The notes under the pieces are model-generated. The model worked only from the letters and a program-made list of their open reading frames with translations. It was not told where the DNA came from and did no database searches. From NCBI RefSeq assembly GCF_026672375.1, contig NZ_JAPPRA010000001.1, positions 806,001 to 870,000 on the forward strand: a stretch of DNA of 64,000 bases, given 5' to 3'. Position 1 is the stretch's first letter. Each line of letters opens with the position of its first letter. Positions 27,379-42,979 of the stretch are shown here, in pieces. Source of the stretch: Caulobacter sp. SL161. GTDB lineage: Bacteria; Pseudomonadota; Alphaproteobacteria; Caulobacterales; Caulobacteraceae. The position numbers were made by a program, and so were the translations under genes.

Positions 27379-27396
27379 CATAAAGATATCTTTATG
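27379..27396. promoter_or_regulatory. 18-bp perfect palindrome upstream of ahcY
   Basis: CATAAAGAT/ATCTTTATG is perfectly self-complementary, AT-rich in GC-rich surroundings, and lies 72 bases before the ahcY start. The sequence type resembles motifs proposed for ArsR-family regulators (SahR type) of the methionine/SAM cycle. Functional assignment is inference. Confidence 0.65.
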
Positions 27397-27487
27397 TCAG
27401 GGGGTGTGGGCGACCGTTGGCCTCGGGTGGACGTCTACTTTTCGCCCTCGAGAAGGAGCTGTCCCTACATCTCACGGCGAGACGATC

Positions 27488-27581
27488 GCAGGGCTGAGCA
27501 GGTCACTCAAGGACCGCCCTACGGGCGGCCGCCGCGCGGCGACGCGCGAGCGTCGTCCTTGACTGACCTGATCAACCCTGC
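27488..27581. repeat. Cloverleaf-forming intergenic sequence
   Basis: A 16-bp stem with one mismatch (27499-27514 with 27555-27570) encloses three abutting perfect hairpins: CGCCC-TAC-GGGCG (27515-27527), GCCGC-CGC-GCGGC (27528-27540) and GACGC-GCGA-GCGTC (27541-27554), with no unpaired base at the junction. An outer GCAGGG/CCCTGC pair closes it. No gene is convincing in 27397-27634. It could be a repeat, a structured RNA or a cruciform; the strand is undetermined. Confidence 0.6.
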
Positions 27582-27634
27582 ACGCTGCAGCCTCCAAGAG
27601 ATTTAAGGATCGCACCCGACCGGGGCGGTCGGGG

Positions 27635-28345
27635 CTAGAGGGCGTCCAGGGCTTGCGGGACCAGCCAAGCCTCGTCTTGCCCGAAAGCTAGAACGCTTCG
27701 ACGAAGTTGGGCGATGGTTTCGTCGCTCAACAGCCAAGCACGTGTCCGGGACCGTTCAGGGTTGGGGACATCCGTCCAGAACGGCGGAGCCGCTTCGCCA
27801 TCCTGCTCCGCCGATCGCCAGTCAATGACGAATGAGGCGAGGCCTTGCGCGGCGGCCAAGCTTTCGCTCACGCGCCACGCCTGACGAGCCTCTTCCGTGG
27901 CGCCGCCGATCAGGGCAATTCCGGCCAGCCAATCGTGAGGATCTTGGATCTGAATCTCAAGCGTCCAGGAGAAGGCGGCGGTGAAGACAGCGCTCACGGC
28001 GGTTTGCTGATGCGCTGGCCAGGTCCGCCAGCCCGCCATCTCCAAACGCGAAGCGATGGCGACGGGGGCTGCCCCCATCCAGCTTGGGTCGTTGACGGCG
28101 AGCTCAAGAATTCGAGGGAGGAAATGCTGATAGTCCCTACCTGTACCAACGGTGGTGATGGCCCAACCAGCGTAAGGACCGATGTCAGCATTCGCGATAG
28201 CCGCAAGGGGGCGACCGGTCAGCATACGATGAATCGCCTCGGCATCCCTTGGCGGTGAAGCCTCAAGCGTCTTGGGGGCCGGCGCATCGGCGAAGACGCG
28301 ATAGGCGGATTCCAACGCTTTGATCAGGTCCGATGAAAGGATCAC
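27635..28345 (-). CDS. Hypothetical protein, coupled to GST gene
   Basis: Predicted 236-residue cytoplasmic protein that I do not recognise. It is Ala/Leu/Trp-rich with many predicted helices and no signal or catalytic motif. The GTG at 28345 overlaps the GST TGA (GTGA), so it is probably translated by coupling; a GTG 24 bases earlier is also possible. Its internal GC content and codon use look somewhat less extreme than its neighbours', so acquisition or relaxed selection is possible. Confidence 0.6.
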   Translation of the reverse strand: MILSSDLIKALESAYRVFADAPAPKTLEASPPRDAEAIHRMLTGRPLAAIANADIGPYAGWAITTVGTGRDYQHFLPRILELAVNDPSWMGAAPVAIASRLEMAGWRTWPAHQQTAVSAVFTAAFSWTLEIQIQDPHDWLAGIALIGGATEEARQAWRVSESLAAAQGLASFVIDWRSAEQDGEAAPPFWTDVPNPERSRTRAWLLSDETIAQLRRSVLAFGQDEAWLVPQALDAL

Positions 28346-29028
28346 CCCTGCTGCCCCAACCGCTCCCACCCGTCGAAGAACGGGAACCGCTCCGCCCAGA
28401 ACGCCTCCAGCCTCGGGTCCGCATCCACCCGCCGCACGGCCTGCGCCATTCTCGGCGCGGCCTCGTAGAACCGCACCCGCCGGGGCCCCCAGCGGCTGAC
28501 GACCGCGACATAGAGATCAAGCACGCCCAGCGTGTCGCCCAGCAGGTAGGGGCCGCTGTGACGGTCCATCAGCGGCGCGACCTGGCTTTCCATCATCGCC
28601 CAGCAGTCGGCGATCCGCTCGGCCGTCGCGGCCTTGATCCGCGCCTGCACCTCGGGGTCGGGCCCGCCCAGGCGCGCGGGCTCGTCGCGCACCCAGAACA
28701 GCGAATAGATCGAGGCCGGGATGAAGGTCATCCAGCGCAGGAACTGAGCCCGCATCGGATCGTCGATCGCGGGGCCGAGCTTCGCTTCTGGATAGCGGTC
28801 GGCCAGCCAGATCAGGATGGCGGCGCTTTCGGTGATCGTCTCGCCGTCGGGGGTGACCAGGGCCGGGATCTGCTTGAGCGGATTGACCGTCGCCACCTTG
28901 GCCTGCTCGACCTCGCCCTCCCAGGTCGGGGCCTCGATGATGTCGTAGGGCAGGCCGATCAGCGTCATGGCCGCCTCGATGGGCACGCCGCCCGATCCGA
29001 GGGCGCTGAACAGGCGATAGGCGGCCAT
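28342..29028 (-). CDS. Glutathione S-transferase family protein
   Basis: Predicted 228-residue GST. The N-terminal thioredoxin-like domain includes NPLKQIPALV (cis-Pro) and TESAAILIWLADRYPEA (glutathione gamma-Glu site), followed by the helical C-terminal domain. The substrate is unknown. ATG 29028 has GGAG upstream; the longer frame start at 29049 is not supported. Confidence 0.82.
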   Translation of the reverse strand: MAAYRLFSALGSGGVPIEAAMTLIGLPYDIIEAPTWEGEVEQAKVATVNPLKQIPALVTPDGETITESAAILIWLADRYPEAKLGPAIDDPMRAQFLRWMTFIPASIYSLFWVRDEPARLGGPDPEVQARIKAATAERIADCWAMMESQVAPLMDRHSGPYLLGDTLGVLDLYVAVVSRWGPRRVRFYEAAPRMAQAVRRVDADPRLEAFWAERFPFFDGWERLGQQG

Positions 29029-37439: not shown

Positions 37440-37532
37440 GGAGATCGGCGCGGACGGAGTCCTCGCCAACCTGGTCAGGGCCGAGAGGCAGCAGCCACAA
37501 CGAGATCACCTCTGGGTCGTCTGCCGGTCTCC
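37440..37532 (+). ncRNA. ffs: Signal recognition particle 4.5S RNA
   Basis: The core GGTCAGGGCCGAGAGGCAGC (37473-37492) followed by AGCC is the conserved SRP RNA apical hairpin: the symmetric and asymmetric loops of domain IV with a GNRA-type tetraloop GAGA. Outer bases 37441-37449 (GAGATCGGC) pair fully with 37523-37531 (GCCGGTCTC), closing a long rod of about 92 nt. The RNA binds Ffh to target membrane proteins. It lies in the gap before dnaX, a linkage also seen in other bacteria. The exact ends are estimates. Confidence 0.85.
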
Positions 37533-37623
37533 ACCTCATTTTCCTCGAAATTCTGTCAGCAGATGCGCGCGCACTTGGGCGCGAGGCTTTTGCTGCGCCC
37601 TCCGCCCCACTACACTCTGCGCC

Positions 37624-41972: not shown

Positions 41973-42494
41973 ATGGCCATCCGTCGCATCCTTACCGTCG
42001 ATAACGCCGCCGACCTGGCGACGCTGAAGAAGATCTCCACGCCCGTGGAGGCCGTCACCGATGAGCTGCGCGCTCTGATGGATGACATGCTGGAGACCAT
42101 GTACGACGCCCCCGGCATCGGCCTGGCCGCCGTGCAGGTCGGCGAACCCGTCCGCGTGATCGTCATGGACCTGGCCCGCGAGGGCGAGGACAAGGCGCCG
42201 CGCTACTTCGTGAACCCCGAGATCCTGGCCTCGTCCGAGGACCTGCAGGGCTACGAAGAAGGCTGCCTGTCGGTGCCCGAGTACTATGACGAGGTCGAGC
42301 GCCCGGCCAAGGTCACCCTGCGCTACATGAACTACCAGGGCGAAACGGTCGTCGAGGAAGCCGAGGGCCTGTTCGCCGTCTGCATCCAGCACGAGATGGA
42401 CCACCTGGAAGGCGTGCTCTTCATCGACCACCTCTCGCGCCTGCGCCGCGACCGCGCCATGGCCAAGGTCAAGAAGGCGCGTCGGGCGGCTTAG
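41973..42494 (+). CDS. def: Peptide deformylase
   Basis: Predicted 173-residue metalloenzyme removing formyl from nascent proteins. All three motifs are present: [20 protein letters not shown] (Cys ligand) and [12 protein letters not shown] (HExxH). It is only 8 bases from rmuC, so likely in one transcript; fmt, its usual neighbour, is 3.5 kb away on the opposite strand. Confidence 0.93.
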
Positions 42495-42499
42495 GCAGA

Positions 42500-42979
42500 C
42501 TACCGCGACCGCCCCTGATCCGTCTCGTAGGGCGTCCCGTCTCGACGCCGGTAGACGCTCTCGCCGTCGCGCAGCACCAGATCGATATCCGGATAGTCGC
42601 AGCCGTCCTCATCGGGCCGTCGCGAGCCGACTTCCAGCAGCAGAACGTCCCGATCCGACCGGTTCTGGAAGCAGTGGCCATTGGGGACGCCGGCCTTGAA
42701 GCCCGCGCAGTCGCCGGCTCGCATCACCGTCTCGCCGTCATTCTCGACCAGCACCACCTCGCCCTCGACCACCCAGGTGAACTCATCCTCGGCCGTGTGC
42801 CAGTGGCGCTGACTGGACCAGGCGCCGGGCGGCAGGCGCAGCAGGTTGACGCCGAACTGATCAAGCCCGACCGCGTCGCCCAGCTTGGTGCGGTGGCGCT
42901 GCAGGCAAGGCTGGTTGAACGGCGTGGGATAGGCCGTGCCGACGCGAGTGGGGGCGGTGGCGAGATCGATCTTGGGCAT
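42500..42979 (-). CDS. Cupin-domain protein
   Basis: Predicted 159-residue single cupin: the first motif is [16 protein letters not shown] (metal-binding His-His-Glu) and the second [12 protein letters not shown]. Possible roles include sugar isomerase or dioxygenase; no function is assigned. Convergent with def. Confidence 0.75.

Follow-up and report, generated by a model that had tools for sequence, protein, structure and literature searches.

Bacterial genomes contain MITEs and comparable short mobile sequences, such as ERIC, RUP, and NEMIS (reviewed in PMC2229807). Caulobacter has its own described inverted repeats, CIR1–CIR4 (Chen and Shapiro 2003), which, according to PMC2229807 and PMC10969869, consist of two separate arms, a linker, and a loop in which GANTC is conserved. 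REPs, in turn, are palindromes of 20–40 bp that carry a terminal tag, GTAG or CGTC, and are associated with RAYT transposases; families with the CGTC tag exist in alphaproteobacteria (PMC3733652).

Here, we analyze a repeat of ca. 195 bp from Caulobacter and its relatives that has apparently not been described before. It lies upstream of ahcY in a 64-kb stretch of DNA, henceforth termed the window. The repeat resembles bacterial MITEs in being short, intergenic, and multi-copy, with dispersed copies and a long stem between its ends; terminal inverted repeats are present in most copies as an outer stem, CCTTACATCTC/GAGATGTAAGG, with ends that are not fixed. Unlike MITEs, it contains a four-way junction, three abutting hairpins, and a conserved G·G mismatch. 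We found neither a target-site duplication at the sites compared nor, in the flanks examined, a parent insertion sequence sharing its ends. With CIR1–CIR4 it shares the genus, a length of ca. 110 bp or more, an intergenic location, inverted repeats, and multiple copies. It is, however, a single nested cloverleaf rather than two arms with a linker (the CIR feature as given in PMC2229807), and a GANTC (CcrM) site occurs in only 23 of 142 copies, at no fixed position. Judged by those descriptions, which set it apart, the cloverleaf is unlikely to be one of CIR1–4. The flanks of loci L002, L080, and L044 contain two other families of palindromic repeats, CCTCCCCC...GGGGGAGG and CCCGTCATCCCGCGC...GCGCGGGATGACGG, which are abundant, with tens of matches per genome, and might correspond to CIR repeats of the literature.

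Like REPs and BIMEs, the copies are dispersed intergenic palindromes, but at ca. 195 bp their architecture differs from that of a tagged palindrome of 20–40 bp. A RAYT-type Y1 transposase (PF01797) was present in 2 of 12 element-carrying genomes tested, and RAYT was rejected as a mobilizer since it is absent from most carriers. A more distant parallel, by analogy only, is the AAV inverted terminal repeat, in which a nested palindrome exists in a flip and a flop form. The cloverleaf likewise consists of nested palindromes and can have its inner part inverted, but it is a chromosomal intergenic repeat with three inner hairpins, and we know of no replication protein for it.

A cloverleaf nested in a larger palindromic element

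The preliminary description of this DNA had noted, at 27499–27570, a 16-bp stem with one mismatch that encloses three perfect hairpins without unpaired bases between them, extended by an outer GCAGGG/CCCTGC pair. Direct reading of the sequence confirms the cloverleaf: the stem, the abutting hairpins, the extending pair, and the loops, comprising two triloops (TAC and CGC) and a GCGA tetraloop, are all present (Table 1). As read on the window sequence, the single mismatch is C·C (27506/27563). The proposed extent was correct for the inner part, whereas an outer stem and flanking hairpins had been missed and were revealed by comparison of copies. We define as canonical the strand that bears a G·G mismatch, i.e., the minus strand of the window. 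On this strand, the element runs from hairpin A through outer stem CCTTACATCTC, unpaired TTGGAGGCTGCAGCGT, and the long arm to the three abutting hairpins, and from there through the long arm, unpaired GATCGTCTCGCCGT, and outer stem GAGATGTAAGG to hairpin B. Hairpin A stops one base short of the stop codon of a 244-aa ORF (27635–28369, minus strand).

The supposition that such a fold is unlikely by chance was borne out for both strands. Predicted RNA folds reached −67.2 kcal/mol on the plus strand (z −5.48) and −74.4 kcal/mol on the minus strand (z −7.16), and none of 200 shuffles was as stable in either case. With DNA parameters, the z values were −5.8 and −7.4, respectively, and the minimum-energy fold of the single strand partly rearranges the cloverleaf core.

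Table 1. Features of the element in the window, in window order, and examples of the linked ncRNA-like module at other loci.
Feature	Position	Strand	Sequence or remark	Basis
Whole element, ca. 195 bp	27438-27633	-		alignment of the four copies of this genome and 94 loci
Flanking hairpin B	27438-27455	-	sequence variable, pairing kept across copies	folds, alignment
Outer stem, one half	27463-27473	-	CCCTACATCTC; pairs with 27598-27608	copy alignment, folds
Conserved unpaired strand	27474-27487	-	GATCGTCTCGCCGT on canonical strand	near-invariant in Caulobacter copies
Long arm, one half	27488-27513	.	GCAGGGCTGAGCAGGTCACTCAAGGA; mismatch base 27506	direct reading; pair counts
Core hairpin, third on canonical strand	27514-27528	.	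CCGCCC-TAC-GGGCGG, triloop TAC	sequence, folding
Core hairpin 2, conserved middle hairpin	27529-27539	.	CCGC-CGC-GCGG; in general CCGC-NNN-GCGG	CCGC/GCGG in 236/242 three-hairpin cores (both strands counted)
Core hairpin, first on canonical strand	27540-27555	.	CGACGC-GCGA-GCGTCG, loop GCGA	sequence, folding
Long arm, other half	27556-27581	.	TCCTTGACTGACCTGATCAACCCTGC; mismatch base 27563	direct reading; pair counts
Conserved unpaired strand	27582-27597	-	TTGGAGGCTGCAGCGT on canonical strand	alignment
Outer stem, other half	27598-27608	-	GAGATTTAAGG	copy alignment, folds
Flanking hairpin A	27615-27633	-		sequence, ORF list, folds
ncRNA-like module (example among others)	L092:2024-2478	+		
ncRNA-like module (example among others)	L110:763-1222	-		
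ncRNA-like module (example among others)	L088:2002-2401	+		
ncRNA-like module (example among others)	G000:C1:2800413-2800541			

Copies in Caulobacter and related genera

A search for homologues, which the preliminary description had proposed together with covariance analysis, uncovered three further copies in this genome and many in relatives. The four copies of the genome (4.0 Mb, two contigs) lie at 833480 (the copy at ahcY), 1279303, 2419565, and 161259. By sequence search, the element was matched in at least 49 of 75 Caulobacter genomes, with 1 to at least 18 matches per carrier genome, where one copy may match on both strands. A 22-base stretch containing the unpaired strand GATCGTCTCGCCGT had matches in 83 stretches across the genomes of the collection, and all records concerned are named Caulobacter, Caulobacterales, or unresolved proteobacterial MAGs. 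Related cores also occur in other genera of the Caulobacteraceae; a covariance model comprising arms and core matched at least 44 of 199 family genomes and at least 8 of 22 genera, seven of these besides Caulobacter. In a class-wide search with the covariance model, the matches listed came from at least 2 of 385 genomes, one being this genome and the other a genome of a different family with a degenerate copy.

Two settings of individual copies were recorded. At locus L278 (genome G401, another alphaproteobacterial family), the one distant, degenerate copy among the matches listed is flanked, as read by eye, by a small ORF of RuvC-like appearance and by a tyrosine recombinase gene adjoining a tRNA (features at 912–1478 and 1631–2773). 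The ORF has no Pfam or NCBIfam match, and it and the integrase gene were discarded as partners of the cloverleaf, as they have no relatives near other copies. In several genomes that belong to another genus of the family, a gene reading as ffh is found close to the cloverleaf (L235, L242, L247, L319, and L329).

Covariation with few wobble pairs

Conservation of shape was counted in 133 copies located via the conserved inner stem, both strands being counted. The exact zero-gap three-hairpin core was retained in 121 of them, and in 129 two G residues face each other at one and the same stem position. Fixed across copies are this G·G mismatch, the stem sequence TCAAGGA/TCCTTGA, the CCGC/GCGG stem of hairpin 2, and the two unpaired strands.

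Covariance analysis revealed compensatory changes, and every arm pair covaries. In a set of 30 diverse sequences, whose three core hairpins were selected for perfect stems so that the support comes mainly from the arms, themselves taken from copies partly selected for paired arms, 27 of 39 pairs have double changes. In total, 222 double-changed cells were counted, compared to 59.7 in shuffles (0 of 500 shuffles had as many) and 19–27 in controls with slid partners. A less biased set of 58 model-aligned copies, the model of which still derives from copies partly selected for paired arms, showed 98.3% Watson-Crick, 0.4% G-U, and 0.7% A-C pairs (96.8%, 0.5%, and 1.5% for the arms alone), and the mismatch was G·G in 55 of the 58.

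In RNA under selection, changes commonly proceed via G-U. In the seed set, G-U of any kind occurs in only two arm pairs. An ncRNA-like module from the same genomes (see below) contains 12.6% G-U, counted in a structure that was itself predicted, which favors G-U over A-C. The near absence of G-U in the cloverleaf relative to this module suggests that its symmetry is maintained at the level of DNA rather than RNA. A cruciform site, one of the options raised at the outset, would fit both the scarcity of G-U and the conserved mismatch.

Turnover of sites and inversion of the core

Comparison of orthologous sites revealed that the element comes and goes. Upstream of ahcY it is present in G000, G069, and G072 and absent from 18 other genomes read, including G027 and G044 with 99% and 98% identical ahcY regions. 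Five genomes carry the element in the ispH–thrB intergene, where six others have only 41–43 bp between the genes. A further intergene, occupied in G072, has a short empty form in the window's own genome with ca. 20 bp between genes (window 42440–42560); its counterparts in G072, G069, G025, and G026 hold the cloverleaf together with other repeats. The sites form mosaics in which the element is mixed with further repeats and genes of foreign appearance, and which are gained and lost as larger blocks. Among the sites compared, there was neither a clean insertion of the element by itself nor a clean pair of occupied and empty sites and, due to this mosaicism, a target duplication could not be defined. 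When empty sites were sought by joining flanks that themselves carry repeats, other repeats dominated the results. We found no autonomous copy or mobilizing gene. The small repeat GGGTCGAAAGC occurs at a constant position on the left of hairpin A in roughly one fifth of copies and hardly ever on the right; we rejected it as the target site, since this frequency speaks for a target preference at most.

The core itself occurs in two orientations. At the orthologous ahcY site, G072 has it in the opposite orientation to G000 and G069, and both orientations were also seen at other sites. Inversion of a core between short inverted arms is a known result of strand switching or recombination.

A linked ncRNA-like module

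In several genomes, non-orthologous cloverleaf copies share sequence on the hairpin-B side, in which no convincing gene was found. This shared part holds a module of ca. 430 nt with a covarying terminal stem, GGGGAGG/CCTCCCC (GGAAAGGG/CCCTTTCC), and a −10-like sequence precedes it. Of 142 cloverleaf copies, 47 have the module in their examined flanks, and for 43 of these it lies downstream in the same orientation. By itself, it was matched in 57 of 75 Caulobacter genomes, often more than 10 times and up to at least 45 times per genome, and it occurs also in genomes without cloverleaf matches; this genome has 14 matches, none of them within the 64-kb window. Some copies are preceded by half or core-deleted cloverleaf remnants, and several reside at orthologous places in different species. 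Rfam searches gave no match at gathering score and nothing credible at permissive thresholds, and the module was not found in the literature searched. The cloverleaf has thereby led to a second multi-copy family of Caulobacter, one that resembles structured RNA genes.

Nature of the element

Many copies, presence and absence at orthologous sites, compensatory changes, asymmetric fixed marks, and two core orientations together make it probable that the element is a dispersed, non-autonomous, mobile-type DNA element of nested palindromes that is read as a hairpin or cruciform. A mobile repeat of nested palindromes had been among the initial options, and it is the one that the homologous copies, their compensatory changes, and their turnover favor. 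With compensatory changes and further copies on record, the observation also withstands the refutation criterion of the preliminary description, which called for both to be absent along with a transcript. The cloverleaf shape would be used as DNA, forming a hairpin on a single strand at replication forks or extruding as a cruciform. A trans-acting protein may read the four-way junction together with the fixed G·G mismatch, the invariant inner stem, hairpin 2, and the two unpaired strands as recognition marks, and then copy or move the element. Repeated rewriting of one arm from the other, by template switching or hairpin repair, would change both sides of a pair jointly, and we propose that such templating accounts for the double changes without intermediates. 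This scheme additionally assumes that selection re-establishes the G·G at its fixed position. The core could be flipped when the arms recombine or when a strand switches from one arm to the other. At ahcY, the element would be a passenger upstream of a conserved promoter region. With arms that co-change almost without wobble intermediates, the copies amount to a natural collection of DNA palindromes with four-way junctions that spans the family, and provide a ready test system for the copying, correction, and flipping of palindromes in bacteria.

Sequence-fixed marks across the whole family and the intergenic location of the copies would also be expected of a chromosomal protein-binding palindrome that serves a nucleoid, repair, or segregation factor and is spread and maintained by selection rather than being selfish. 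We regard this as unlikely, since 26 of 75 Caulobacter genomes have no sequence match among those listed, the number of matches per genome varies widely from a single one upward, and sites turn over between close species. Slightly less likely still is a structured non-coding or cis-regulatory RNA family in several copies. Strong covariation, conserved unpaired segments, and the fixed linkage to the ncRNA-like module in a third of copies point in this direction, but the pair frequencies given above leave no RNA-type wobble on either strand, and the orientation to neighboring genes is not fixed. Moreover, no Rfam family matched the cloverleaf above gathering score, a permissive search yielding only weak hits far below the gathering scores, and no promoter-like match was detected in a promoter test that is weak in Caulobacter. 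Scarce wobble and the lack of Rfam and promoter-like matches also disfavor the structured RNA that the preliminary description had considered. Quite improbable, in our estimation, is that cloverleaf and module form one noncoding mobile system, in which a folded-DNA site would be recognized in trans and moved or controlled with help of the multi-copy structured RNA of the module, which would be encoded in the same orientation a few hundred bases further downstream.

The least probable reading is a DNA-structure recombination site, akin to integron attC, that joins foreign genes to the chromosome. Integron attC sites act as folded single strands and, like the cloverleaf, keep their shape while the sequence varies. 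The genes adjoining the hairpin-A side differ between species at ahcY, at thrB, and at the G072 site, while the other side is conserved, and the lone outlier copy has, as read by eye, a tyrosine recombinase gene and a tRNA as neighbors. However, genes directed toward hairpin A do not outnumber those directed at the other side and barely exceed random expectation, no immediately upstream gene has a fixed orientation, left and right being alike, and the consensus lacks attC end motifs; no gene arrays were seen. The gene-cassette hypothesis was abandoned as neighboring genes show no bias. A first count had suggested a polarity of variable DNA (116 right-only versus 10 left-only shared flanks), which was mainly due to the downstream ncRNA-like module and disappeared under a stricter flank-conservation test (6 of 14 versus 5 of 12 loci).

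The ahcY neighborhood

Closer relatives share the promoter-side sequence of ahcY, including the palindrome CATAAAGATATCTTTATG or a near form of it, whether the element is present or not. This palindrome, located in the ahcY leader (window 27379–27396), is retained unchanged or nearly so in most of the relatives compared, and a SahR-type regulator may bind there. Since the promoter-side sequence is retained with or without the element, the mobile-type palindrome is probably a neutral neighbor of ahcY. Elsewhere in the window, an Rfam search located the bacterial small SRP RNA (RF00169) at 37442–37533.
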